Counted from the stretch's first letter, positions 3,297 through 30,656 are shown. The stretch: 64,000 nucleotides of DNA from an uncultured Rhizobiaceae group bacterium (GCA_947501445.1 CANMVS010000009.1:1-64000), one strand, 5' to 3'. The notes: generated by a model not told the origin, from the letters alone. Translations and numbers: made by a program.

Positions 3297-5198
3297 ATGA
3301 GTAAGAGTAGTTCGGATCTTTTGCGAGTGGAGGACTTGCGGGTCGCGATCGGTACCAGGGAGCACCAGGTTGACGTCGTCAAAGGTGTCAGTTTTCGAAT
3401 TCCCAAGGGCAAAACCGTTGCGCTTGTTGGCGAATCAGGCTCCGGCAAATCAATTATTGCACAAACCATAATGGGAATTTTACCCGATATTGCATCCGTA
3501 ACTGGTGGTTCGATCAATTTTTACGATCCACTGGATGATGGCAAGCCGGTTGATATTGTAAAACTGCAACGTGATGGAAAGGAAATGCGTCAGCTGCGTG
3601 GCGGTCGCATTTCAATTATTTTCCAGGAACCCATGACATCGCTTTCCCCCGTGCACACGGTGGGCAATCAGATCGACGAGGCGCTTTATCTGCACCGCGA
3701 AGTCAGCCGTCGTGAATGCCAAAAACTCACAGAACAGATGCTGGAGCTCGTTGGATTTCCCGATCCCACGCGGGCCTATCACATGTATTCGATGGAATTG
3801 TCGGGTGGTCTCAGGCAACGGGCCATGATTGCCATGGCGCTCGTGTGTAACCCGGCGTTGCTGATTGCTGATGAGCCTACAACTGCGCTTGATGTGACGG
3901 TTCAGGCTCAGGTTCTTGCTGTCTTGAAAGACGTGCAGCAAAAACTTGGCATGTCTTTGCTGCTGATTACCCATGATCTGGGTGTGGTTGCCAATATGGC
4001 CGATGAAATTCTCGTGCTTTATCATGGAGAATTGATGGAGGCTGGCACGCTTGAAGATATCTTTCACAAGCCTCAGCACCGGTATTTGAAGGCATTATTG
4101 GCCGCTGTACCCCGTTTGGAAATGGAGCCGGGCGAAAAACTTGTTGCACTCAGAGAAATTGAACATCCGCTGCCGGATTCGTTCAAGGAACGCGCGAAGC
4201 AGCGTTTGCATGAACCCGATGACACAATTCTCACAGTCAACAATTTGACCAAGAGCTTTTCGACGCGAAAGGGAAGCAGGCTCATATCATCAGAGGCGGA
4301 CAAGGTCATTGCTGTTGATAATGTAAGCTTTTCTGTACGCTACGGTGAATGTTTCGGACTTGTCGGGGAAAGCGGCTGCGGAAAAACCTCGCTCAGCAAG
4401 ATGATCATCCATGCTTTGACACCAACCAAAGGCGAGATTTGCTTTAATCAGGGTGACCGGGAAATCGATTTGGCAAAACTGCGCGGCCGGGAGCTTTTTG
4501 AAGCGCGCCGTAATATACAAATGGTTTTTCAAGACCCTTTCTCGTCACTGTCTCCACGTTCAACCGTCATGAATATCCTGGCTGAACCATTGGAAATTCA
4601 CGGTGACGGCAATGCGAAGTGGCGCAAGGAGCGCGCCCGCGAATTGATGACGATGGTTGGTCTTTCACCAACATTCCTTAACCGGTATCCGCATAGTTTC
4701 TCGGGCGGACAGCGCCAGCGAATTGGCATTGCCCGTGCACTTGCGCTTGATCCTGATCTCTTGATTTGCGATGAGCCTGTGTCTGCACTCGATGTATCCG
4801 TTCAGGCTCAGATTCTAAATCTGCTGATACGATTGCAGCGTGAATTGAATCTGACGACAATTTTCATCTCCCACAATCTTGCAGTCGTCAACTATGTTGC
4901 AGACCGCGTTGCGGTCATGCAAAGCGGGCGTATCGTAGAAATTGCGCCAGGCGATGTGCTGTTTCGTGAACCCATCCATCCCTATACGAAAAGCCTGCTT
5001 CATTCCATTCCAACAACTGATTTGAAGCACCCGTTGGAACTGAGCGAGACGGATATTTTAACAAGCAGCGGCAGCGAAAAATGGGACACACAATTTATTC
5101 CTGAAGGGCCGGGCGCACCCATGGAAATGTTGGAGGTAGGCAAAAATCATTTTGTTCTTGTCCGCCCGAACAGTGATACGACGAGGCTTGTGGCATGA
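3297..5198 (+). CDS. Oligopeptide/microcin C-type ABC transporter, fused dual ATPase (YejF-like)
   Basis: Two Walker A (GESGSGKS, GESGCGKT) and two signature motifs (LSGGLRQR, FSGGQRQR). Confidence 0.93.
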   Translation: MSKSSSDLLRVEDLRVAIGTREHQVDVVKGVSFRIPKGKTVALVGESGSGKSIIAQTIMGILPDIASVTGGSINFYDPLDDGKPVDIVKLQRDGKEMRQLRGGRISIIFQEPMTSLSPVHTVGNQIDEALYLHREVSRRECQKLTEQMLELVGFPDPTRAYHMYSMELSGGLRQRAMIAMALVCNPALLIADEPTTALDVTVQAQVLAVLKDVQQKLGMSLLLITHDLGVVANMADEILVLYHGELMEAGTLEDIFHKPQHRYLKALLAAVPRLEMEPGEKLVALREIEHPLPDSFKERAKQRLHEPDDTILTVNNLTKSFSTRKGSRLISSEADKVIAVDNVSFSVRYGECFGLVGESGCGKTSLSKMIIHALTPTKGEICFNQGDREIDLAKLRGRELFEARRNIQMVFQDPFSSLSPRSTVMNILAEPLEIHGDGNAKWRKERARELMTMVGLSPTFLNRYPHSFSGGQRQRIGIARALALDPDLLICDEPVSALDVSVQAQILNLLIRLQRELNLTTIFISHNLAVVNYVADRVAVMQSGRIVEIAPGDVLFREPIHPYTKSLLHSIPTTDLKHPLELSETDILTSSGSEKWDTQFIPEGPGAPMEMLEVGKNHFVLVRPNSDTTRLVA

Positions 5199-7105
5199 TA
5201 AAGACAGACAATTTCATCGCCGTATTGCTCGGGTTGGTTCTGCTGCCAATCATGGTACTTGCTGCAAATGCGGCTCCAATGAATGAGCCCCCGGACCTTG
5301 AGCCCCTGGTTCTATCCGGTGAACTTCCCCCGATGGCTGAACGGTTGCCCAAACAGCCTTTGATCGTGGATTTCAAAGCGGATGAAAAATCCATCGGCCG
5401 CTATGGTGGTTCGTTGCAGATGTTATTGGGCAAATCCAAAGACATCCGCATGATGACGGTCTATGGGTACGCGCGGCTGGTCGGGTTTGACCATAGTTTT
5501 GCGCTGAAACCAGACATTCTTGAGAGCTTTGAGGTTGAAGAAGGGCGGATTTTTACGCTGCGTTTGCGCGAAGGTCACAAATGGTCAGATGGTTATCCCT
5601 TTACATCGGAAGACTTCCGCTACTATTGGGACGATGTTGCAAATGACAAGGAACTCACTGGCAAGGGTGTGCCACGGGTGCTGCTGTCGAATGGCAAGCC
5701 ACCCAAATTCGAAGTGTTGGATGAGCTGACGGTGCGCTATAGTTGGGATGATCCCAATCCTGCATTCACACTGGGTCTGGCTGGTCCGAGCCCGGCATAT
5801 ATCTACAAGCCGGCCCACTATATGAAGCAATTTCACAAAAATTATGTGGATCAGGTCAAGCTTGAAAAAATGGTGAAAGATGGCGAGTACCGCAATTGGG
5901 CAGCCATGCATATACGTAAGGGACGTCAATACAGGCAGGAAAATCCGGACCTTCCAACTTTGCAGCCCTGGCGGAATATGACGGAGGGTCCTTCCAAACG
6001 GTTTGTATTCCAGCGCAATCCCTACTATCACCGCGTCGACCCAACCGGCCAGCAACTGCCCTATATTGATGAGGTTGTTCTGCTCATGGGGTCAACGGAC
6101 ATCGTGCCGACAAAAGCCGGTTCCGGAGAAAGCGATCTGCAGGCCAGATACCTGCGTTTTGACAATTACACATTCCTCAAGCAGGGCGAAAAGGATCAGA
6201 ATTATCGGGTTCTGCTTTGGCGCAGCGGTGTGGCATCACAAATTTCCCTCTATCCGAACCTGAATGTCAAGGATCCCGAGTGGCGCCGGGTATTTCAGGA
6301 CGTACGTTTTCGCCGGGCCCTTTCGCTGGGACTTAATCGACACGAACTGAACGAGCAGTTGTTTTTTGGCCTGGCACGGGAAGGTGGCGATACGGTCTTG
6401 AGCAAATCGCCGCTCTATCAGGAAAGGTTTGAAAAACACTGGACACAACATGATGTCCCCCAGGCAAACAAATTGCTTGATGAAATGGGGCTGGACAAGC
6501 GTGATGATAATGGCACGCGCCTGCTGCCCAATGGTGAGCCGATGGAGATCATCGTTGAAAGCGCCGGGGAAAGCACGGAGCAGACAGATGCCCTTGAGCT
6601 GATCCGGTATCACTGGAGCGATCTGGGTATCCGTGTTTTCACGCGTACCCTGCAACGCGATATCCATCGCCGCAGGTTTTTGACCGGCGAAACAATGATG
6701 ACCATTTCCAAGGGCATGAATATCGGTCTGGCCACACCGGATTCAAATCCTGAAGAACTCGCACCCGTATCGTCGGCGCAGCCAAACTGGCCGGTGTGGG
6801 GACAATATACCGAGACTGCGGGGAAGGCGGGTGAGCCACCCAGTTTGCCCGCAGCAAAACGTTTGCTTGACCTGTATTTCCTTTGGCGAAAATCCACCAA
6901 TACGCCGGAACGCGTGGCCATCTGGTCAGAAATGCTGGAGATTTATTCTGAGGAAATTTTCTCGATCGGCATAGCGCGCGAGGCAATTCAGCCCGTCGTG
7001 GTCAATAGGAAATTACGTAACCTTCCGGAAACTGGCATCTATTCCTGGTCGCCGTCCGCATTTTTCGGCATCTACCGCCCGGATACATTCTGGTTTGAGG
7101 AATAG
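5195..7105 (+). CDS. Extracellular solute-binding protein family 5 (peptide ABC transporter)
   Basis: Signal peptide then GGSLQMLLG...KWSDGYPFTSEDFRYYWDDV; overlaps ATPase stop by ATGA. Confidence 0.92.
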   Translation: MIKTDNFIAVLLGLVLLPIMVLAANAAPMNEPPDLEPLVLSGELPPMAERLPKQPLIVDFKADEKSIGRYGGSLQMLLGKSKDIRMMTVYGYARLVGFDHSFALKPDILESFEVEEGRIFTLRLREGHKWSDGYPFTSEDFRYYWDDVANDKELTGKGVPRVLLSNGKPPKFEVLDELTVRYSWDDPNPAFTLGLAGPSPAYIYKPAHYMKQFHKNYVDQVKLEKMVKDGEYRNWAAMHIRKGRQYRQENPDLPTLQPWRNMTEGPSKRFVFQRNPYYHRVDPTGQQLPYIDEVVLLMGSTDIVPTKAGSGESDLQARYLRFDNYTFLKQGEKDQNYRVLLWRSGVASQISLYPNLNVKDPEWRRVFQDVRFRRALSLGLNRHELNEQLFFGLAREGGDTVLSKSPLYQERFEKHWTQHDVPQANKLLDEMGLDKRDDNGTRLLPNGEPMEIIVESAGESTEQTDALELIRYHWSDLGIRVFTRTLQRDIHRRRFLTGETMMTISKGMNIGLATPDSNPEELAPVSSAQPNWPVWGQYTETAGKAGEPPSLPAAKRLLDLYFLWRKSTNTPERVAIWSEMLEIYSEEIFSIGIAREAIQPVVVNRKLRNLPETGIYSWSPSAFFGIYRPDTFWFEE

Positions 7106-7113
7106 GCTTTAAC

Positions 7114-8112
7114 ATGTTGAAATATATATTTTTCCGGTTCATGGCGATGATTCCGACACTGGCAATAGCCAGCGTGTTGATCTTCACAATAGTGGAATTG
7201 CCGCCAGGAGATTACTTTGAAAGCTATGTGGCAGAATTGCAGGCTTCCGGCGAAACTGTTGACCCGGAGAAGATTGAATATCTCAGAGTAGAATATGGAT
7301 TTGATAAACCCGCATGGCAGCGATATTTCGGCTGGGTTTGGGGCATGTTCCACGGTGATTTTGGATATTCATTTGAGTATGAACGACCCGTTTCCGAGTT
7401 GATCGGCAGTCGGATATTTTTGACGATGTTGCTTTCGACCGTGACAATCATTTTCACCTGGCTGATTGCGTTTCCAATCGGCATTTACTCCGCGACCCAT
7501 AAATACTCAATGGGCGACTATGGTTTCACCTTTATCGGTTTGCTGGGATTGGCCATCCCCAATTTTCTTCTTGCACTCGTTATGATGTATTTCGCCAAAG
7601 TCTGGTTTGGCACCTCTATTGGCGGTCTGATGGACCCGGAATATATCAACGAACCCATGAGTTTGGCAAAGTTTGGTTCGATCATGGAACATATGGCGAT
7701 TCCCGTCATCGTCATTGGCACTTCGGGTACAGCCGCCATGATCCGCCGCATCCGGGCCAATCTTCTGGACGAATTGAAGAAACAATATGTGACGACCGCA
7801 AGGGCCAAGGGGGTGCCGCCCGTGCGTGCGGTCCTTAAATATCCTTTCAGAATGTCATTGAATTTCTTCATTGCCGACATAGGCAACATATTGCCCGCAG
7901 TGGTTTCCGGTGCAGAAGTTGTGGCGATTGTCCTCTCGCTGGAAACAACCGGGCCCTTGCTCATATCAGCTTTGCAAAGTCAGGATATGTACCTTGCCGG
8001 AACGTTCCTCATGTTCCTTGCCGTATTAACCGTGATTGGCGTTCTGGTTTCAGACATTTTGCTGGCCATTCTTGATCCGCGAATTCGCTTGCAGGGAAAG
8101 GCGCAAAAATGA
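7114..8112 (+). CDS. ABC transporter permease (YejB/DppB-like)
   Basis: MLKYIFFRFMAMIPTLAIASVLIFTIVELPPGDY; RANLLDELKKQYVTTARAKG EAA loop. Confidence 0.92.
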   Translation: MLKYIFFRFMAMIPTLAIASVLIFTIVELPPGDYFESYVAELQASGETVDPEKIEYLRVEYGFDKPAWQRYFGWVWGMFHGDFGYSFEYERPVSELIGSRIFLTMLLSTVTIIFTWLIAFPIGIYSATHKYSMGDYGFTFIGLLGLAIPNFLLALVMMYFAKVWFGTSIGGLMDPEYINEPMSLAKFGSIMEHMAIPVIVIGTSGTAAMIRRIRANLLDELKKQYVTTARAKGVPPVRAVLKYPFRMSLNFFIADIGNILPAVVSGAEVVAIVLSLETTGPLLISALQSQDMYLAGTFLMFLAVLTVIGVLVSDILLAILDPRIRLQGKAQK

Positions 8113-9287
8113 GTAACTCGTCACTTCCCGAGGCGGGCAAGCCGCTTGGGCACTTTGTGTCCACCGCAGAATTCGATCCACAGTCAACTGAAAAGCTGAC
8201 GCCGGCGCAGGAAAAATACTACTTCGCATCCCAAAGGCAGCTTATCTGGTGGAAGTTCAAGAAACACCGCCTGGCATATTATTCAGGCCTGTTCCTCCTG
8301 TTTTGCTATTTTGTAATCGCTTTTGCCGAATTCATAGCGCCCTATGATCTCTCGCATCGCCATATCGACGACATCTATGCACCACCTCAGGGAATACACT
8401 TTTTTGAAGACGGAAAATTTGTCGGTCCACGCGTTTATCAGCGCATCAAGACACTTGATATGGAGATTTTAAAACGCGAATACTCCGACAATATGACCAA
8501 GAGCTATCCGATCCGGTTCCTTTGTGAGGGCGACCCCTACCGCTTCTGGGGTCTGATAGAGGGCAATACACACCTGTTCTGTGTTGAGGGGAAAGGGGAT
8601 CTGTTCCTGCTTGGAACGGACAGGCTTGGCAGAGACATGTTCTCGCGCATTATTTACGGTGCGCGTATCTCACTGACGATCGGATTGATCGGCATTACCG
8701 TCAGTTTTGTGCTCGGTATTACCATTGGCGGACTGGCTGGCTATTACGGCGGCTGGGTCGATGTTGTGGTCCAGCGCATTATTGAGGTATTGCAGTCAAT
8801 TCCGAGCATACCATTATGGATGGCACTGGCGGCAATATTACCGGTGACGTGGAGCCCAATTCTGATCTATTTCGGCATAACCGTGATACTGGGTTTGCTT
8901 GATTGGACAGGGCTTGCACGCGCCGTGCGCTCCAAACTGCTGTCATTGCGAGAAGAAGACTACGTGCTTGCTGCGCAATTGATGGGGGCCAAGCCGCCAC
9001 GCATCATTGTGCGGCACCTTATCCCCGGTTTCATGAGCCATCTGATTGCGTCAGCAACGATAACCATACCAGCGATGATCCTTGGCGAAACTTCGCTGAG
9101 CTTCCTGGGACTTGGCTTGCGGCCGCCTGTAACCAGCTGGGGTGTATTGCTCAATGAAGCGCAGAACATCAACGTCGTGGTGCTTTACCCGTGGCTGATC
9201 TTACCGGTGGTGCCAGTCATTCTGGTCATTCTGGCCTTCAATTTCATGGGTGATGGACTGCGTGACGCTGCTGATCCCTATCACTAG
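8109..9287 (+). CDS. ABC transporter permease (YejE/DppC-like) with large extracytoplasmic insert
   Basis: FLLGTDRLGRDMFSRIIYGARISLTIG, EEDYVLAAQLMGAKPPRIIVRHLIPG; ATGA overlap with upstream permease. Confidence 0.92.
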   Translation: MSNSSLPEAGKPLGHFVSTAEFDPQSTEKLTPAQEKYYFASQRQLIWWKFKKHRLAYYSGLFLLFCYFVIAFAEFIAPYDLSHRHIDDIYAPPQGIHFFEDGKFVGPRVYQRIKTLDMEILKREYSDNMTKSYPIRFLCEGDPYRFWGLIEGNTHLFCVEGKGDLFLLGTDRLGRDMFSRIIYGARISLTIGLIGITVSFVLGITIGGLAGYYGGWVDVVVQRIIEVLQSIPSIPLWMALAAILPVTWSPILIYFGITVILGLLDWTGLARAVRSKLLSLREEDYVLAAQLMGAKPPRIIVRHLIPGFMSHLIASATITIPAMILGETSLSFLGLGLRPPVTSWGVLLNEAQNINVVVLYPWLILPVVPVILVILAFNFMGDGLRDAADPYH

Positions 9288-17074: not shown

Positions 17075-17986
17075 GTGTGCCATCGCCTGCTAAAGAATAC
17101 GTGCAACGGGCAACCAGGAGTAGTACTTTTGATCAGAATGCAGGACCTGGATATGATTTCAGATTTTGGCAAGCGACGTATCGGGTCCATCGCGCAACTG
17201 ATGTGGACCCTGGCAACGCACAAAAAAATAGACCGTCAACGGCGAAAATTCATTCGAAAGAAACTTGCCCGCCGGTTTCCCGGTCCCTTTGACATAGAGA
17301 TTGAGAACATTCATCTGCGTGCCTATCCGCTCGAGAATTATTGTGACCGGACTGCTGTTGGCCGCAATCATCTGCCTGAAGTTCCCGAGCGTTCACTGAT
17401 TTTACCACTCGTGAAACCGGGCATGGTTTTTGTTGATATCGGTGCCAACATTGGTACCTATAGTCTTTTTGTTGCAAAGCAATGCAACGACCATGCGCGG
17501 ATATTGTCATTTGAACCCCACCCACGCACTTTCGGGAAATTGTCTTTCAACGTAAAAGCCAATGGCTTTAACGCCATTGAAGCCATCAACATGGGCGTGG
17601 GACCTGAACAGACACGCATGCGCCTTTATTCAAACGGTGGCACCAATATTGGTACGGCGTCAATTCTTCCGGAGGCAGCCAGCGACAAGCAATTTGTCGA
17701 TATCAAAATTGTTCCGCTTGCGGATTGTCTGAAAAGCCGTCTGATCAAGCGCGTTGATTTGTTGAAAATCGATATTGAGGGCTTTGAAGATCAGGCGCTG
17801 TTGCCGTTGATGACGCCGGAAAACAGTGCGTTATGGCCAAAAGCAATCCTCATTGAGACGGTTCTGCAAAAACACTGGCAACGCGATTGCGTTGAGGTGC
17901 TGACGTCACTTGGTTACACAATCGCTGGCAATACGTCAGAAAATCTTCTGCTGGTTCATCCAATGACCGAGAAACTGGAATCGTGA
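17075..17986 (+). CDS. FkbM family methyltransferase (start possibly 17138 or later)
   Basis: GMVFVDIGANIGTYSLFVAKQ SAM-binding motif; LKIDIEGFEDQAL FkbM signature. Confidence 0.88.
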   Translation: MCHRLLKNTCNGQPGVVLLIRMQDLDMISDFGKRRIGSIAQLMWTLATHKKIDRQRRKFIRKKLARRFPGPFDIEIENIHLRAYPLENYCDRTAVGRNHLPEVPERSLILPLVKPGMVFVDIGANIGTYSLFVAKQCNDHARILSFEPHPRTFGKLSFNVKANGFNAIEAINMGVGPEQTRMRLYSNGGTNIGTASILPEAASDKQFVDIKIVPLADCLKSRLIKRVDLLKIDIEGFEDQALLPLMTPENSALWPKAILIETVLQKHWQRDCVEVLTSLGYTIAGNTSENLLLVHPMTEKLES

Positions 17987-19269
17987 TTGATTTCCCGATT
18001 GCGTGAAAATCCACCCATGGAGATATTCATATCAAGATGATCCAGATGGAAGTTGATCGGCTCGCGATCATGGTCATGACCATTTTCGCAGGCCTCTATC
18101 AGTGACGTCATCATTTTGGCCGCGACCGGCGCATTTTTGAATTGATTGCCGCTGGTGCCAATGGCCATGTAATAGCCTGGCAAATCGCTGCAATCATAAA
18201 TTGGCATCCAATCATCTGTGACATCATAAAGTGCCACAACGCCACGCGTCTGCGATGGAATACCCAACTCGGGCAGCCTTTGAGCCATTCGCATGACAAG
18301 CACATTCCACTGTTCGGAAAAATTGCTGTCAAAATTGTCTGGATCATCAACCCATTGTTTTTGGTCGCAGGCAGGATCTTCAGAACCGATCAGAATATTG
18401 TTGCCGATCTCAGGCCTGCAATAGGTGTGAATATCACTATCGGAGTAGACGAGACCATTGTTTTCAAAATCAAAACCCTCTGGTGATGGCACATGGGCCA
18501 CTTCATGGCGCAATGCGCGTGTTTTTATATTCATGGATTGTTCAACACCGGCCATCTGGTTGATGCGAGCGGAATGGGGACCGGCGATGTTTATGACGAC
18601 CGGTGCCTGGATAGTTTGGCCGTCATTTAATACAACGCCGCTGACCCGGCCGTCACTTTGACTGATTTCAACAACTTCAGTATTGAAAGCAAATTCCGCT
18701 CCAAAAGCTTCCGCGCCGCGCTGTGCATTGTGCGCCGATAGTTTCGGATCATTCACATAGCCGCCATTTGGAAAGAATACCGCGCCAGCGACGCTTGGAC
18801 CGGTCGGCTCTCCGAAACCTGGGTCCTGCGGTCGTTTTGCAGGTTCGAATTGCCGTGTATCGGCACCTTTCAGATGATCGCCAATGGCTGTTGGTGCAAT
18901 GTCTTCATAGGGACAGCCAATGCGGTCCATCATCTGACATACTTTGGCTAAATTGTTGTTATGATCTGTTTTGATGACCAGGCAGCCGGTGTTGTGGTAC
19001 CTGATCAACCCGTATTCATCATCCACGCCAATGTAATCGGCCCAATTGCTCCAGTAGTGCCAACCTTCATAGGCGATCGCACAGGATTCCAACGCGGAAT
19101 AATAGGTGCGGATGATGGCGCATGACCCGGATGTCGATCCATAGCCGGATTCTGGAAGCTTATCGATTGAAAGCGTTTTCCAGCCTTTTTTGGCCATTTC
19201 AAATGCAGTGCATGCGCCAATAACACCAGCGCCTATTATAATTGCATCGTAGCTTTGTTTTTTTGGCAT
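17956..19269 (-). CDS. FAD-dependent oxidoreductase (DAO / sarcosine-oxidase-like)
   Basis: AIIIGAGVIGACTAFEMAKKGWKTLSIDK dinucleotide-binding motif; C-term AIGTSGNQFKNAPVAAKMM. Confidence 0.9.
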   Translation of the reverse strand: MPKKQSYDAIIIGAGVIGACTAFEMAKKGWKTLSIDKLPESGYGSTSGSCAIIRTYYSALESCAIAYEGWHYWSNWADYIGVDDEYGLIRYHNTGCLVIKTDHNNNLAKVCQMMDRIGCPYEDIAPTAIGDHLKGADTRQFEPAKRPQDPGFGEPTGPSVAGAVFFPNGGYVNDPKLSAHNAQRGAEAFGAEFAFNTEVVEISQSDGRVSGVVLNDGQTIQAPVVINIAGPHSARINQMAGVEQSMNIKTRALRHEVAHVPSPEGFDFENNGLVYSDSDIHTYCRPEIGNNILIGSEDPACDQKQWVDDPDNFDSNFSEQWNVLVMRMAQRLPELGIPSQTRGVVALYDVTDDWMPIYDCSDLPGYYMAIGTSGNQFKNAPVAAKMMTSLIEACENGHDHDREPINFHLDHLDMNISMGGFSRNREINHDSSFSVIG

Positions 19270-19298
19270 CTGATGTTCCTGATGGCTACCGGTGTGCT

Positions 19299-20093
19299 TT
19301 ACATGTGTACCGATTGTGCGATTTCAAAACGCTGCCCGATAATGGCGTAATCTTCAAGAGATGTTTGTGCAAATCCGGTCAGCAACAACATGTCCCGTGT
19401 CGTTTCGTCCAAGGTTGCCATGGCTTCCACGACGGCCATATGAAGCTGGTCTGTCGACCAGTCTTTATTCTTGGAGCAGATCATGGGTAATCCGGGCGTC
19501 GGCTCGGTTGTTGTCAACACACGTAATTCCTGCGCCGCTTTCTCGTGCCTTAATGCAATTTGCCATGTGACCGCATCAATGGCGGCAACGTCGGCAACGC
19601 CGGTAGCGACATTGCGAATGGATTGTCGATGGGAGCCGCTTTGCAGCCGGCACAGGAAATAGGGCTCAGAACCCGCCAGATCGCGTAGCGCGTAGGCAAG
19701 TGTGGCATAGCCGGATTGAGAATTATGGCCATTGAAGGTGAACCGGGAGCCCTGTAACGCACTCAGGTCGGCTGCCGGAAAATCCTTTCGCACGACGATG
19801 GTGCTATAATAACATCCGGCGCCACAGTCGATATCATAGGCAGGTGTTCCGATAACATTGACGCTGTCGGCCAGACTGCGGACGAGTGGCAATCCGCATG
19901 TTTGTGACAGCAGCAGGCCGCGCTGTTGCCACAGCTCAGCATCCGGTGTGCCTCGGTGCAATGCATCGGGTGCCGGCAGGCGGTAATTTCTCAGACTTTT
20001 TCGCAACGCCCGCCAGTACACGTCGTGAGCATCTTCCAGTTCCGGCCAATCGTACATTGGCAGCGCCGCGATGGCAGCTATGTTTTCGCTCAT
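19299..20093 (-). CDS. PhnD/SsuA-like phosphonate-type ligand-binding protein, apparently without signal peptide
   Basis: RFTFNGHNSQSGYATLAYALRDL and DVAAIDAVTWQI typical of PhnD-like folds; start MSENIAAIAALPMYDW overlaps desaturase stop as ATGA. Confidence 0.75.
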   Translation of the reverse strand: MSENIAAIAALPMYDWPELEDAHDVYWRALRKSLRNYRLPAPDALHRGTPDAELWQQRGLLLSQTCGLPLVRSLADSVNVIGTPAYDIDCGAGCYYSTIVVRKDFPAADLSALQGSRFTFNGHNSQSGYATLAYALRDLAGSEPYFLCRLQSGSHRQSIRNVATGVADVAAIDAVTWQIALRHEKAAQELRVLTTTEPTPGLPMICSKNKDWSTDQLHMAVVEAMATLDETTRDMLLLTGFAQTSLEDYAIIGQRFEIAQSVHM

Positions 20094-20992
20094 TTCAGGT
20101 GCCCAGGCTTTGACGGATATATGACCGGTTCCTTTTGCCGCAGAGCAAACAGACGAATGATCTGCCAATAATTGTCAAATCGATAGCCCTTGTTCATGGC
20201 AAGAAACCGTTTGCGGTTTGAACTGTATAGTTCCGGTAACTTATGCCAGGCAACAGCCGGGTAGGCGTGATGCACCGCGTGAAGGTTATTGTTGAGAAAC
20301 AGCAGACTGAATATCCCGCAATCTTCAATGATCACCGAGCGCGCGCGCACGCTTTCTTCAGCCTGATGTTCCAGATAGGTTCTGATCATCAGCAAAGACA
20401 GGCCGCCATAACAACAAACCAGATAATAACTCAAGTGCAGCGGGGACCACCATGTAACGACGCATAGCACAGGCACTGCCAGAACAATATGTGTTATCCA
20501 GGCGTTGCGCACTGAAGTGTGACCGGCAAAAATTGCCTGACAATCTGACACGATCAGCCGGACGAGTGCTATAGCAGGGCCAAGAACCAGCCGCCCTATC
20601 AATGTATTGTTCAACTGCAGCATCAGTTTGAAAAATACCGGCAGACGCTGCCAGAATGGCTGCGCAAGGTACCAGCTTTCCGGGTCGTCGTAGGGATCGC
20701 AAATTCGCGAGTTTAAATGATGTTTGAGATGGGAATCCTTAAATCGCAGATAGGGAATAAACAACCCAAGAGGAATTGATACGATCGCATCATTCAAAAG
20801 CTGTGAACGAAAAGGATGGCCGTGCAGACACTCATGCTGGAGAGAGGAATGGAGCGTAATGGTTGGCACCAGCAAAATTACGGTTACGAGCGTTGAAACC
20901 TCTGCCAGGCCAATCACCGCACCAATCCAGATTGCATAACATATCACGATCAGAAATATTGTGCGCCATTCCGATTTGTCCCTCAAAATCAT
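20090..20992 (-). CDS. Membrane fatty acid desaturase/hydroxylase family protein (upstream alternative start 21049)
   Basis: Three His boxes: HECLHGH, HLKHH, HAVHH; multiple TM segments. Confidence 0.85.
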   Translation of the reverse strand: MILRDKSEWRTIFLIVICYAIWIGAVIGLAEVSTLVTVILLVPTITLHSSLQHECLHGHPFRSQLLNDAIVSIPLGLFIPYLRFKDSHLKHHLNSRICDPYDDPESWYLAQPFWQRLPVFFKLMLQLNNTLIGRLVLGPAIALVRLIVSDCQAIFAGHTSVRNAWITHIVLAVPVLCVVTWWSPLHLSYYLVCCYGGLSLLMIRTYLEHQAEESVRARSVIIEDCGIFSLLFLNNNLHAVHHAYPAVAWHKLPELYSSNRKRFLAMNKGYRFDNYWQIIRLFALRQKEPVIYPSKPGHLK

Positions 20993-21070
20993 CTCCTTAC
21001 ATAGATTTTGTCTGCTCTTCTTATGTGTCGAGCAGGCTATGATGGACAATATGAGAGTATGCGCATATTA

Positions 21071-21087
21071 ATGAGAGAACGTCTCAT
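21071..21087. promoter_or_regulatory. Inverted repeat ATGAGA-gaacg-TCTCAT in divergent promoter (candidate XRE operator)
   Basis: Perfect 6-bp arms; additional direct ATGAGAG at 21051; lies between divergent desaturase operon and XRE gene. Confidence 0.5.
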
Positions 21088-21109
21088 AATATGTAGATTG
21101 TGACATTAA

Positions 21110-22003
21110 ATGAATATTGATGACAATACACAACAATTGCCGCTAAAACGCACCGATAAAAGGGATGTTGCGGAGATATTTCGCGATCGCATGGCTTTGC
21201 TCATTGCCCAGAAGGGGTTCAATCTGGCCCGATTCGCCAAGAGCATTGGTATTGATCGCTCTGCGCTGAGCCAGTTTCTGGCACCGGGTTCGACACGTTT
21301 GCCACGTGCAGAGACGCTGTGTGCGATAGCCCGCACATGTGGTGTTTCCCTGGATTGGTTGATGGGTCTGATCGCCACAGAAACCTATGATCACGATATT
21401 GCACCGATGATGGAAGTGGAACGGGTAACCGATGAGACCGGTAGTCGAATGATTGCCGACTGGCATCGACAGGCCATGGGCTACAAAATCCGTTATATTC
21501 CCAGCGCCCTGCCGGATCTGTTGAGAACGGACACAGTTCGCAGTTTTGAATTTGATGCGCACAACAGCGATGAACGTATCGCGCGTGAACAACAGGCAAG
21601 GGACCAGTTGACCTATTCCCGCAGACCCGAAACTGACATGGAGGTTTGCATGCCTATACAACGATTGCAGCAATTTGCCCGAGGGCAGGGAATATGGCGG
21701 GGTATTCCAGTCGATGTGCGCAGAGAACAACTTGAACATATGGCGCGGCTCATTGACGAATTGTACCCGACATTCCGCTTGTTCCTCTTTGATGGACGCG
21801 AGGCATATGCTGCGCCCTATACGCTTTTTGGGCCACTAAGGGCCGCAGTTTACATCGGGAACATGTATCTTGTGGTCAATTCCGTTGAACATATTCGCGC
21901 ACTTGCGGCTCATTTTGATCAGCTGATCCGAATAGCCCGATATGGACCGGACCGGGTTTCCGGTCTGATTGAGGAACAATTGGCAGAGCTTCCTGCAGTA
22001 TGA
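21110..22003 (+). CDS. XRE-family transcriptional regulator with C-terminal extension
   Basis: MALLIAQKGFNLARFAKSIGIDRSALSQFLAPGSTRLPRAETLCAIARTCGVSLDWLMG HTH_XRE. Confidence 0.85.
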   Translation: MNIDDNTQQLPLKRTDKRDVAEIFRDRMALLIAQKGFNLARFAKSIGIDRSALSQFLAPGSTRLPRAETLCAIARTCGVSLDWLMGLIATETYDHDIAPMMEVERVTDETGSRMIADWHRQAMGYKIRYIPSALPDLLRTDTVRSFEFDAHNSDERIAREQQARDQLTYSRRPETDMEVCMPIQRLQQFARGQGIWRGIPVDVRREQLEHMARLIDELYPTFRLFLFDGREAYAAPYTLFGPLRAAVYIGNMYLVVNSVEHIRALAAHFDQLIRIARYGPDRVSGLIEEQLAELPAV

Positions 22004-22413: not shown

Positions 22414-23145
22414 TTACACGCTCTCCTGACCAAGTAGCGGAGCAAGGCGGGAATAGGAGTCGTTAAGCGCGTTCCGATGAATCAGCCCAATGCCCATAGC
22501 GTCGTTGTTCAGCGCTGCAGAGTAGAGCATCTCAAAATACTTCAGATAGGCAGATACTTCATTTTCCCAGTTTTGATGCGGCAGGAAATGCGTCCAGAGT
22601 CGTGCCGTTTTGAAATACAGCTCATCGTACATTTTGAACAATGGCTCATTTTCTATGATCCGACATAATACCTTGTGGGCGCGAATATCCACGCGTGCAA
22701 ATGCAGCGCGGTCAACATCACCAAGAAGGCTCTGATAGACGGTTACAACGTTTCCCAGTTCTTGTGTGATGTCCTCATCAATAACGGGCTTTGCAAAGCC
22801 GCCAATCAGCGTCGCCAATTCGATCCTGAACAGGACAGCCTGTTTCATCTGAACAAAATCAAGCGGCGTTACGATCGTGCCAACGCCGTGACGGGTCATT
22901 ACCAGGCCATCTGTATCCAGCCGTTGAAGAACATTCCGAACCGGTGTGCGGCTGACGTCAAACTCTTCGCTGATTTCATCAACGTCCAGCCGTGACCCGG
23001 GCGGGTAGTCCATCAGGGTAATGCGTTCGCGCAGCGCCGAAAATATATATTCAAACCTTTGGCGCCAGGGACTGTTGTCAGTCACTGTGTGAACAGCGAT
23101 CCTAATTTTGCGTCCTTTGTTCATTATCCCGTTATTCTCGCACAA
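22414..23145 (-). CDS. GntR-family transcriptional regulator (FCD-type)
   Basis: YPPGSRLDVDEISEEFDVSRTPVRNVLQRLDTDGLV wHTH; paralogous to the next gene. Confidence 0.9.
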   Translation of the reverse strand: MCENNGIMNKGRKIRIAVHTVTDNSPWRQRFEYIFSALRERITLMDYPPGSRLDVDEISEEFDVSRTPVRNVLQRLDTDGLVMTRHGVGTIVTPLDFVQMKQAVLFRIELATLIGGFAKPVIDEDITQELGNVVTVYQSLLGDVDRAAFARVDIRAHKVLCRIIENEPLFKMYDELYFKTARLWTHFLPHQNWENEVSAYLKYFEMLYSAALNNDAMGIGLIHRNALNDSYSRLAPLLGQESV

Positions 23146-23304
23146 TGATTCAGTCTTGGAGTGCCGATAGGCGCATTACGACGTCAAAGCAAGTATTGAG
23201 GGGGATATATATAAATGAAAAAGGTCGCATGGACAATAGACGCGCGAAAATCAGCCAACGCGCGGCTTGGTATTGGTTGTTATTGTTGACAGTTGGCTGG
23301 CTGG

Positions 23305-24042
23305 CTATGATGTTTCAGGCGGTGCAAATATGGGTTCCAGTCGGACATAGGCGTTATACACCGCATTACGCGTGATAAACCCGACACCTTTTGCGTCATT
23401 GTTTTCCATTGCCGTCAGGGTGAGCTCTATATCTTTCATGAAAATCAATATTTCATCATCCCAATCCTGTTCCGGCAGGAAATAGAACCAAATACGCGCT
23501 GTACGAAAATACAATTCGTCGTAGATTTGAAATAGATTCTCATTGCCTATGATGCGACATATCGCTTTGTGGACACGAATATCCAAAAGCGCAAATGCCT
23601 CAAGATTGGCCCGGCCCAGCAGCTGTTGACAATCAACAACACATTGCCTCAATTCAGTAAGGTTTTCTTCACTGACGTTACGCGGTTCCAGGGTGCCTAT
23701 CATGGAGGCCAGTTCTATGCGGAAGAGCACAGCCTGACGTGCGGCCACAAGGTCAAGCGGCGCGACGATCGTGCCAACCCCGTGACGCATCTTGACCAAT
23801 CCTTCAGCGTCAAGCCTTTGAAGCACATTGCGCACCGGCGTTCGACTCACACCAAATTCCGCACTCAGCTCGTCAACATCCAGTCTTGAGCCCGGTTGGT
23901 ATTCCAACGTTGTAATGCGTCGGCGCAACATGGTGTGTATCTGGTCAAACCGTTGTTTCCACGGGCTCTTATCATCCAGTGTATTGTAGGTGTGGGGTAG
24001 ATTTGGTGTATCTTGCATGAGAGATGCACATCCATGTTTCAA
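23305..24042 (-). CDS. GntR-family transcriptional regulator (FCD-type), tandem paralog
   Basis: YQPGSRLDVDELSAEFGVSRTPVRNVLQRLDAEGLVKMRHGVGTIVAPLD. Confidence 0.9.
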   Translation of the reverse strand: MKHGCASLMQDTPNLPHTYNTLDDKSPWKQRFDQIHTMLRRRITTLEYQPGSRLDVDELSAEFGVSRTPVRNVLQRLDAEGLVKMRHGVGTIVAPLDLVAARQAVLFRIELASMIGTLEPRNVSEENLTELRQCVVDCQQLLGRANLEAFALLDIRVHKAICRIIGNENLFQIYDELYFRTARIWFYFLPEQDWDDEILIFMKDIELTLTAMENNDAKGVGFITRNAVYNAYVRLEPIFAPPETS

Positions 24043-27078: not shown

Positions 27079-29979
27079 TTAGATATTTTTCGCTTTCATC
27101 TTTCGCCACCGGTATTCGCCGGTCAGAATGATATGCGCCCAACCGAGGGGTGAGATGTGCGCGAGGAGATATTCTGGTGTTTCCATCCCGGCCTTTTTAC
27201 GCTGCGCCACCGCTATGCGAAGCTGCTTGGTATTCCAGTAAATTATGATGGCGGTGAGCAGGTTCAGCCCTGCTATGCGGAAATGCTGGCCTTCTGTGGT
27301 TCGATCCCTGATTTCTCCCTGTCGGCCGATCCGCAGGGCGCTCTTCAGGGCATGATGCGCTTCGCCCTTGTTGAGACCGATTTGGGCGCGGCGTTGCATG
27401 TCGGTATCGAGTAGCCATTCGATGATGAACAATGTGCGTTCGATGCGTCCGATTTCACGCAGCGCAATGGCCAGATCATGCTGCCTTGGCCGCGCTGCCA
27501 GTTTCTTCAGGAGCTGGCTGGGCTGCATTCTGCCTGAGAGCATCGTTGCGATGCAGCGCAGTACATCTGGCCAGTTGCTGATGATGGTGTTTTCGCGGAT
27601 TTTGTCGCCAACCAAACCTTTCAGCTCACTCGGGACGGTGCGCCTATCAAAGACATGCAGCCGCTTTGAGGGGAGGTCCCTGATGCGCGGAATAAACCGG
27701 TATCCGAGCAGCGAGGTGGCGGCGAACACAAGATCAGTGAAGCCCCCGGTGTCAGCATATTGCTCTTTGATCTGTTTGCCGGTCGGGTTCATCAGCAAGC
27801 CATCCAGAATATACGGTGCTTCGTTCACCGTGGCGGGGATGACCTGAGTGGCAAACGGGCCGTATTGATCTGACACATGGGTATATGCTTTCAGACCAGG
27901 TTCATGGCCGTATTTCGCATTGATCAGATTCATCGCTTCACCCTGCCTCGTGGTGGGAAAGAATTGCCCATCACTGGATGCCGTCTGGCCAGCACCCCAG
28001 TATATTGCCATTGGCAACTGCGCCTGTGCTTCGATCACCATGGCCAATGCCAGATTGATGGCCTCACTTTCCACATGCCAGTTTGAGAGCCGCGCCAACC
28101 GGGCAAAGCTATGCGTGCTGCTTGCTCCGGCCATCTTGCTCAGACCGAGATTCAGACCTTCCGCGAGGATGACATTCAAGAGGCCAAGCCTGTCTTTGCA
28201 CGGTGCTCCGGTACGCAGATGGGTGAAAGCATCGGTGAACCCCGTATCGTTGTCCACGTCCATAAGAATGTCCGTGATCCTGACTTCCGGCAGGCGGCGA
28301 TAGAGATCAAGGATCAGGCTGTCGGCTTCAGCGGGCACATCAGCTTCAAGCCGTTCTAGGCGCAACCGACCATCTTCGATGACACCGCCGGGAAGGGTGC
28401 CGTTCCTGACCGCCATCGCAAGCCTGTGCAACCCGTCTTCCAGACGCCGTTTGCGATCTGCAATCCAGATCTCCGGCTCCAAAGGCATCAAAAGCCCCAT
28501 GCCGTGGGCCGCTTCGACAGGCACCAGGGCCTGTTTCATATCGCTGTAACGGCGGGAATGAGCTAGCCAGACATCCCCGGACCTGAAGGCCTCGCGCAGA
28601 TGGAACAGCACCGCGACAGCCCAAAGCCGGTCACGGTTAGTTTCGGGGTCGCGGAGATGCCTTCGCCATTTTGATCGCGGTTGAAGAAACGGCGCTGAAG
28701 CGCTTGGGATATCCCGCCGATCCCGGATCACATCCGCCGCTGCGAGCAAGGGTTCCGCCACACTGGCGCAGGCAATGTCCAAGGCCGCCAGCATCCGTGG
28801 AGCATAGAGCTAGAACCGATGATAGCCTTTCCCGACGTAAGCCAACGCATCCGCCTAGACGGTTTTGCCGAGCGTTCCAGCCGTCGCAACGAGGTTTTCC
28901 AGAACGTCCCAGCCACAGGAAACATCCACGGCACTGGCGACAGCCACCTCATCACCTTTGGCGATCAACAATGTTGTCCCCAAAGTCTCGAACCCGGCCA
29001 GAGTTGCGGCGATCTCCGACTGCGCCTCAAAAACACGGGCATCGCAAATCCTCTTTGCCTCTCGCCAGATTGACCCCACAATTCGATCATGGGTTTCGAC
29101 CACGGTATCAGCGATGGCTGCTGACCATTCCACGACACAAGTGGCAAAAATGGCCAAACGACGGTCACTGGTGATGTCCCGAAGACCGTCCACAAAATAG
29201 CGCTCCCCCTGACGGCGCAGGCGTGCGACCCGATGCGCTGCAATATCTTCCAACACCGATGGCGACAGGCCCAGACCTTGCAGAAACTCCAGCCTATCAA
29301 GCTGACGATTGATGTCGGCAGAGTTCTTTCCCACCACGAACTGTCGCAACCAGATGAAGCGACTGATCCGGCCATCTACCTCTTCGGCCAGCAAGTTATC
29401 GAGCTGTGCGCGCATTTTCCTGTCGAGATGAGCCGCAATGCGCGCCTCCACCCTGCGTTCAGCTGCGACCAATGCATCAGCACATCGACGCTCTATTACC
29501 GAAATACCCGGCAGAATGATTTGCCGTCTGCGGCATTCTTCCACGAACCCGCGTACCAGCACCTCGCTGGATTGCGCCGCTTCAGCATTCTGTTCCAGCC
29601 ATTTCCGCATTTTCTTGGCGTGCTTGCCGGAGAACATCTTGTACCCATACATCCTGCGCATCGCGTCCAGATGTTCCCGGCGAGTTTTCTCCCGCGCGGC
29701 ATATGGCAGGAGATCATCCGGTTTCAGTCCGAGTTGCGCGGCTACAAAACGGGAAACGCGTTCAGGAATTACTTCACCAGCTTTCAGCAAGCGACCTGGA
29801 TACCGGAAGGCACAGAGTTGAAGCGCAAAGCCGATCTGGTTCTCGGGTCGTCGCCGCGTTCGAAAATTCTCGGTGTCTTCATCATCCAATGTGTAATGCC
29901 GAAGCAAAGCCATCTCGTCAGTTGGAAGATCAAATAGCGCTGCGCGTTGTCGCGCGGTCAGAACCGCTCGGTGTGCCAT
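27079..29979 (-). pseudogene. tnpA: Tn3-family transposase TnpA; single 966-codon frame interrupted by two in-frame TAG codons (28855-28857 and 28810-28812)
   Basis: ORFs 28855..29979 and 27079..28794 are in the same frame; reading through gives ...GKTV*ADALAYVGKGYHRF*LYAPRMLAALDIACASVAEPLLAAAD..., continuous with Tn3 TnpA. Confidence 0.9.
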
Positions 29980-30021
29980 CAGATTGCTCTTTCTTTATGG
30001 GATGGAGTCTTCGAAAGTAGA

Positions 30022-30069
30022 CATATTGAGACCGCACGCTTGCCATGTCTTTTTCAATGTCTCAATATG
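30022..30069. promoter_or_regulatory. Putative res-site subsite between divergent tnpA and tnpR
   Basis: Perfect 11-bp inverted repeat CATATTGAGAC (30022-30032) / GTCTCAATATG (30059-30069) in the tnpA-tnpR intergenic region. Confidence 0.7.
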
Positions 30070-30104
30070 GCTGTCGCAAAAACCCTTAATCTAAATGAGA
30101 CCCC

Positions 30105-30656
30105 ATGGCCAAAGTCGGATATGCCCGTGTCAGTTCAGTCGGACAATCTGTGGACGTCCAGCGGGAAAAGCTGAGTGATTGTGACAAACTCTTCGAAGAG
30201 AAGCGAAGCGGCGGCACCGACGCTCGCCCCCAGCTCAATCAGTGCCTGAATTACGTTCGTGACGGCGATCAGCTTATCGTCACCCGTATCGACAGGTTGG
30301 CGCGGTCTACACTTCATCTCTGCCAAATTGCTGAAACCTTGCGCGAGAAAGGGGTCGATCTCGTCGTCCACGATCAGAACATCGACACGTCCGATGCTAC
30401 GGGACGTCTGCTGTTCAACATGCTTGGGGCCATCGGTCAGTTCGAAACCGAAATTCGCGCCGAGCGGCAAATGGATGGGATCAAAAAGGCCAAGGATCGA
30501 GGCGTTCAGTTCGGAAAACGGCCTGCACTGACTAACGAACAGATTTCTGAACTCCGCGAAAAACGCCAACAAGGCACGCTCATCAAGGATCTGATGGCCC
30601 GCTACGGCCTCTCCAAGGCCACCATCTATCGATATCTCACCGAAAACGAAGCCTGA
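30105..30656 (+). CDS. tnpR: Serine recombinase / Tn3-type resolvase
   Basis: KVGYARVSSVGQSVDVQREKL; RIDRLARSTLHLCQIAETLREKGVDL; TGRLLFNMLGAIGQFETEIRAER; C-term HTH. Confidence 0.94.
   Translation: MAKVGYARVSSVGQSVDVQREKLSDCDKLFEEKRSGGTDARPQLNQCLNYVRDGDQLIVTRIDRLARSTLHLCQIAETLREKGVDLVVHDQNIDTSDATGRLLFNMLGAIGQFETEIRAERQMDGIKKAKDRGVQFGKRPALTNEQISELREKRQQGTLIKDLMARYGLSKATIYRYLTENEA

Follow-up and report, generated by a model that had tools for sequence, protein, structure and literature searches.

In a 64,000-nucleotide stretch of DNA from an uncultured Rhizobiaceae group bacterium (CANMVS010000009.1:1-64000, hereafter the window), two adjacent genes code for DES, a putative membrane di-iron oxygenase, and PHND, a binding protein predicted to stay in the cytosol. 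We found that DES and PHND, often together with the divergently transcribed regulator XRE, form a conserved module. A third gene of the same operon codes for a flavoenzyme, DAO, and an earlier reading made from the DNA alone (the sequence-only reading) had taken DES, PHND, and DAO as the unit. All four proteins come from known superfamilies. We propose, with a probability of about 40%, that DES and PHND, often with XRE, constitute a two-protein oxygenase system in quaternary-ammonium metabolism and that DAO is a local addition to it.

DES and PHND are a near-obligate pair

The open reading frames (ORFs) called in the window form a minus-strand chain from 20992 to 17956 in the order DES (20992-20090), PHND (20093-19299), and DAO (19269-17956). 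The DES stop and the PHND start overlap in an ATGA, read as tcat on the plus strand at 20090-20093, and 29 bp separate PHND from DAO, so that ORFs, order, overlap, and gap are all as the sequence-only reading had described them. XRE (21110-22003, plus strand), which the sequence-only reading did not include, belongs to the conserved unit.

To analyze the distribution of the pair, each protein was searched in each of 298 genomes of the order, and a leaderless-type PHND was called at E <= 1e-19. PHND was detected in 75 genomes, DES in 83, and both in 73 (Fisher p 1e-55, without correction for phylogeny). In eight of the ten DES genomes that lack PHND at this threshold, a divergent PHND of the leaderless type came up in a profile search (truncated at a contig end in one case), with MCGYP or MCGFP replacing QTCGYP; the two others are incomplete metagenome-assembled genomes (88% and 61% complete). 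In a sample of 299 genomes at the phylum level, all 27 genomes with DES have PHND, and 27 of the 28 with PHND have DES; 17 of these genomes fall outside the order. The pair spans alpha-, beta-, and gammaproteobacteria, rhizobia and Klebsiella included, and its recurrence in dozens of genomes is beyond chance. The co-occurrence is almost obligate.

In most of the loci fetched, DES and PHND lie in one locus, often overlapping or at most 20 bp apart. In most genomes of one family represented in the phylum sample (f60), hundreds of kb separate DES from PHND, or they lie on separate contigs, and both are nevertheless present, so that their joint occurrence goes beyond linkage. In genomes of this family whose PHND lies elsewhere (L187-L195), DES is followed by a multi-spanning protein of about 303 residues, which in Phaeobacter is annotated as a DMT family transporter.

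DES is predicted to be a membrane di-iron oxygenase

Since the alignment with homologues begins at residues 4-8, the DES start is more likely the ATG at 20992, giving a protein of 300 residues, than the possible earlier TTG at 21049. DES matches the FA_desaturase family PF00487 with 119.7 bits (cut-off 29.7) and contains the three histidine boxes HECLHGH, HLKHH, and HAVHH noticed by the sequence-only reading. In 42 homologues, H53, E54, H57, H59, H88, H91, H92, E208, H209, H238, H241, and H242 are invariant, and these clusters fit a di-iron site. The AlphaFold2 (AF2) model has a mean confidence (pLDDT) of 92.3. Compared with the PDB by Foldseek, it gave three matches of probability 1.00, namely FtAlkB (8sbb, TMq 0.53) and two chains of chloroplast FtsHi motor complexes, none of the PDB matches reaching E < 0.001. 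Family model, histidine clusters, and predicted transmembrane fold therefore place DES among the membrane di-iron oxygenases of the PF00487 superfamily, and we read it as such by motif and fold, in line with the sequence-only reading, with an AlkB-like fold and with hydroxylation and desaturation both compatible. Although DES has the histidine clusters and the transmembrane fold of AlkB- and fatty acid desaturase-type enzymes, it differs from them by a motif set of its own (HExxHGHP, HLxHHxxxxLTDPxxDPES, and NNLHxxHH), it matched no PDB chain in a sequence search, and it stays below the curated NCBIfam cut-offs for CrtR (34 of 475 bits), DesA (22 of 500), CrtW (21 of 350), and GntB (21 of 380). 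No NCBIfam cut-off was reached by PHND or DAO either.

PHND is a leaderless relative of AioX

PHND (264 residues) matches the family model PF12974 (Phosphonate-bd) with 89 bits (cut-off 27). Neither the window protein nor any homologue examined shows a leader, as judged by inspection, alignment, and predicted fold and not by SignalP; a crude hydropathy score of PHND overlaps the range of exported proteins. The N-termini of the homologues are short, nearly all of them starting with some version of M(x)nASLPMYDWP (the MYDWP motif), and the first strand of the predicted structure is built from the first residues. PHND is thus predicted to be cytosolic, and a role as periplasmic importer was rejected.

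The AF2 model of PHND (pLDDT 96.4) is closest by Foldseek to AioX (6esv, TM score 0.78), followed by ArrX, PtxB, and PhnD, and AioX is also the best PDB match of the PHND profile (E 4.5e-32). The AioX pocket consists of Tyr88, Cys106, Tyr131, Ser161, Ser163, His192, and Asp210, of which Cys106 carries arsenite and has no counterpart in PhnD (PMC5908839). Tyr88 could not be aligned to PHND by sequence, and the six other residues are all identical in PHND (C66, Y95, S125, S127, H155, and D173); N121 and S158 are likewise invariant in an alignment of 30 sequences. PHND nevertheless differs from AioX and ArrX in that it has no signal peptide, no AioS/AioR partner was seen, it is paired with a membrane oxygenase, and it carries the N-terminal MYDWP motif. 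The marks of a periplasmic AioX sensor are missing here: no export signal was found, and the genes scanned near the operon include no histidine kinase/response regulator pair. A scan of genome contigs with PHND gave one relative only.

PHND has the fold and the family model of the PhnD/PtxB/SsuA-type periplasmic binding proteins (PF12974), but it is predicted to be cytosolic, has no dedicated ATP-binding cassette (ABC) partner, and has the pocket cysteine that PhnD lacks (PMC5908839). No cognate ABC permease or ATPase adjoins PHND in the window. The closest ABC genes are an Opp-type set (double ATPase and permeases) at 3297-9287 on the plus strand, opposite to the trio and about 8.7 kb away from it, with glycosyltransferase genes and the gene of a large MscS-type channel in between. 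In other genomes, the transporters adjoining DES or PHND each come with a binding protein of their own, of the OpuAC or SBP5 type. The sequence-only reading had described PHND as a protein without evident signal peptide or neighboring ABC genes, possibly used otherwise than as an importer component, and our analysis agrees with it on each of these points.

DES/PHND loci are enriched in betaine, choline, and carnitine genes

We compared 98 DES/PHND loci with 40 control windows from 40 sampled genomes for eight families of quaternary-amine or sulfonium metabolism (DMGDH-, MTTB-, BHMT-, carnitine-DH-, OsmF-, ChoX-, BetA-, and DddP-like). At least one of them was found in 36 of the 98 loci (in 14 of the 33 genome families) and in 1 of the 40 controls (p 6e-6). 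Because the eight families were picked after the loci had been seen, this test is supportive and not blind. Betaine-homocysteine methyltransferase, carnitine 3-dehydrogenase, the choline-binding protein ChoX, and OsmF pass the curated NCBIfam cut-offs among the neighbors. The closest PDB entry to the MTTB protein is 4yyc, followed by 2qne and the glycine betaine methyltransferase 9yce. The DddP-like M24 protein stays below its cut-off (477 of 600 bits); in loci L062-L065 and L186 it adjoins PHND within an MTTB/DMGDH/BHMT locus.

In nine loci, from the family of the window and from family f28, DES, PHND, and XRE lie among MTTB, DMGDH, and BHMT genes, and the full combination of MTTB, BHMT-type, and DMGDH genes occurs in G248, G209, G105, G136, and other genomes. 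None of these three was found in the window itself; outside it, the same genome holds six MTTB genes, about ten DMGDH-like genes, and one BHMT gene. Independent lineages agree on the context: DES adjoins carnitine genes in Phaeobacter, and DES-PHND adjoins an OpuAC-type transporter and a luciferase-like monooxygenase (LLM) in Klebsiella, in Erwinia, and on a Ti plasmid. The MtgBCDE loci of glycine betaine demethylation (PMC12478193) contain the same MTTB, DMGDH, and BHMT genes as the nine loci, but they work through cobalamin and require no oxygenase, and the window lacks MTTB and BHMT genes. The main text of that paper names neither a desaturase nor PhnD.

A two-protein oxygenase system is proposed

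Taken together, we tentatively propose that a two-component system is widespread in Pseudomonadota: a membrane di-iron oxygenase would rely on an AioX-fold protein of the cytosol, whose complete thiol/oxyanion pocket would present the substrate or whose Cys/His/Asp site would make it a second enzyme. DES would oxidize a small compound of the quaternary-ammonium or methylated-amine type at the membrane and would require PHND, a soluble cytosolic two-lobe binder of the AioX type, as its obligate partner. The Cys/His/Asp/Ser pocket of PHND may hold an oxyanion- or carboxylate-bearing ligand, and PHND would either present the substrate to DES or process its product. XRE, judged by its position, would control the operon, and the DAO-family flavoenzyme that has joined it here probably completes the oxidative removal of N-methyl or amino groups.

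Several observations weigh against this proposal. About 60% of the DES/PHND loci have no recognizable betaine-type gene within about 8 kb, and some have housekeeping genes around them or glutathione S-transferase genes next to them. The neighbors in other loci suggest organosulfur metabolism, such as an LLM/aminoacylase cluster in Rhizobium NXC14 and soxC in Methylosinus. One complete genome (G187) has PHND and no DES. Moreover, since the tallied families were chosen post hoc and the loci are phylogenetically related, the p-values are optimistic. As for the glutathione S-transferase genes, two separate genome families have them next to PHND (L032-L037 and L092-L097).

XRE and a possible sensor role of PHND

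XRE consists of an HTH_3 domain (31.3 bits, cut-off 23) and a C-terminal domain of about 200 residues. Homologues 37-58% identical to it adjoin DES in other genomes, and XRE is present in 52 of the 98 DES/PHND loci. In the window, DES and XRE share a 117-bp upstream region (20993-21109), which holds the palindrome ATGAGA-N5-TCTCAT (21071-21087), a possible operator. This palindrome was not found in other loci, and a conserved XRE operator was rejected, as 42 DES/XRE intergenic regions gave a weak 6-mer excess (top in 16 regions, at most 13 in shuffles) and no shared palindrome. The helix-turn-helix gene that adjoins PHND in Ruegeria conchae was also rejected as an XRE homologue, being a different protein (21% identity).

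In the main rival of our proposal, PHND would be a cytosolic sensor of a pathway signal that controls the activity of XRE, or of DES, as periplasmic AioX does via AioS, with DES as the regulated enzyme. The nearest solved relatives of PHND, AioX and ArrX, are indeed sensors, and in five loci (L046, L052, L056, L097, and L111) PHND shares the strand of XRE and lies downstream of it, away from DES. However, several beta- and gammaproteobacterial DES-PHND loci have no adjacent XRE homologue (L198-L202, L115, and L121), and PHND therefore goes with DES and not with XRE. We consider a sensor role possible but unlikely.

Less likely alternatives: a lipid enzyme, a three-gene pathway, or an arsenic system

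In a second alternative, DES would be a desaturase/hydroxylase of lipids or membranes that responds to stress, osmotic or nutritional, with the betaine genes belonging to a co-regulated osmoadaptation and PHND reporting a phosphate- or oxyanion-type status. The membership of DES in the FA_desaturase superfamily and the osmolyte transporters close to some loci are consistent with this, but the score far under the NCBIfam DesA cut-off and the neighbors, which are catabolic enzymes (DMGDH, MTTB, and carnitine dehydrogenase) and not lipid genes, make it improbable.

The sequence-only reading had proposed that DES hydroxylates an N-methyl compound and that DAO oxidizes the resulting amine, PHND being accessory and the trio a functional unit. 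DAO (437 residues) is a DAO/sarcosine oxidase-like oxidoreductase dependent on flavin adenine dinucleotide, which matches PF01266 over its length (167 bits, cut-off 27.9). It belongs to the same superfamily as monomeric sarcosine oxidase and N-methyltryptophan oxidase, and its nearest NCBIfam models are solA (N-methyltryptophan oxidase) and the sarcosine oxidases soxA_mon and soxB, but it is far below all their cut-offs (76 of 257, 65 of 480, and 58 of 529 bits, respectively). DAO homologues with 45-60% identity occur in 26 of the 298 genomes, 18 with DES and 8 without. The operon structure in the window speaks for a trio, and two other genomes (G237 and G287) have all three genes side by side as well, with DMGDH and MTTB nearby, so that the arrangement does recur. 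However, DAO adjoins DES-PHND in these three sampled genomes only and is absent from most genomes with DES, and the trio was rejected as a conserved unit. Among the other DAO loci, 5 of 20 have DMGDH, MTTB, BHMT, or DddP-like genes nearby; rarely beside DES-PHND and sometimes near such genes elsewhere, DAO thus appears as a metabolic neighbor that has joined the operon here, outside the core. Since the conserved partners are DES and PHND, often with XRE, a hydroxylase-then-amine-oxidase pathway is not generally maintained by selection, and we judge it quite improbable. From the degradation pathway for a methylated or N-containing compound suggested earlier, N-methyl or quaternary-amine metabolism remains a good guess given the context of the DES/PHND loci, while the conserved trio does not stand.

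Finally, an arsenic-linked system, in which DES would oxidatively demethylate a betaine-like organoarsenical such as arsenobetaine and the PHND cysteine would capture a trivalent arsenical, is very improbable: although the alignment predicts a full AioX-type pocket with the arsenite-binding cysteine, betaine-type uptake genes lie nearby, and one PHND adjoins arsB/arsJ in Ruegeria conchae, that is the only PHND beside arsenic genes among the annotated regions (its helix-turn-helix neighbor falls outside the XRE family), the system is widely spread in ordinary soil genomes, and the same pocket residues bind phosphate too in AioX.

Other genes near the operon

Two tandem GntR/FCD-type regulators, clearly related to one another, adjoin the XRE gene (22414-24042, minus strand). 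A Tn3-type element lies 5-9 kb past XRE (27079-30656) and comprises pieces of a Tn3-family transposase (DDE_Tnp_Tn3 and part of DUF4158, in two ORFs) and a divergent resolvase.

Significance

A literature search for a link between desaturase, PhnD, and betaine found no paper on the pair, subscription journals being mostly outside this search, so that an earlier description is possible. In the pair, a fold familiar from binding proteins of transport and sensing is predicted to act in the cytosol, and its association with a membrane oxygenase is almost obligate. If quaternary ammonium compounds are indeed involved, DES and PHND would form an oxygen-dependent branch alongside glycine betaine demethylation of the cobalamin type, and they would provide a testable partner hypothesis for two protein families whose current annotation goes no further than "fatty acid desaturase" and "PhnD/SsuA/transferrin family".

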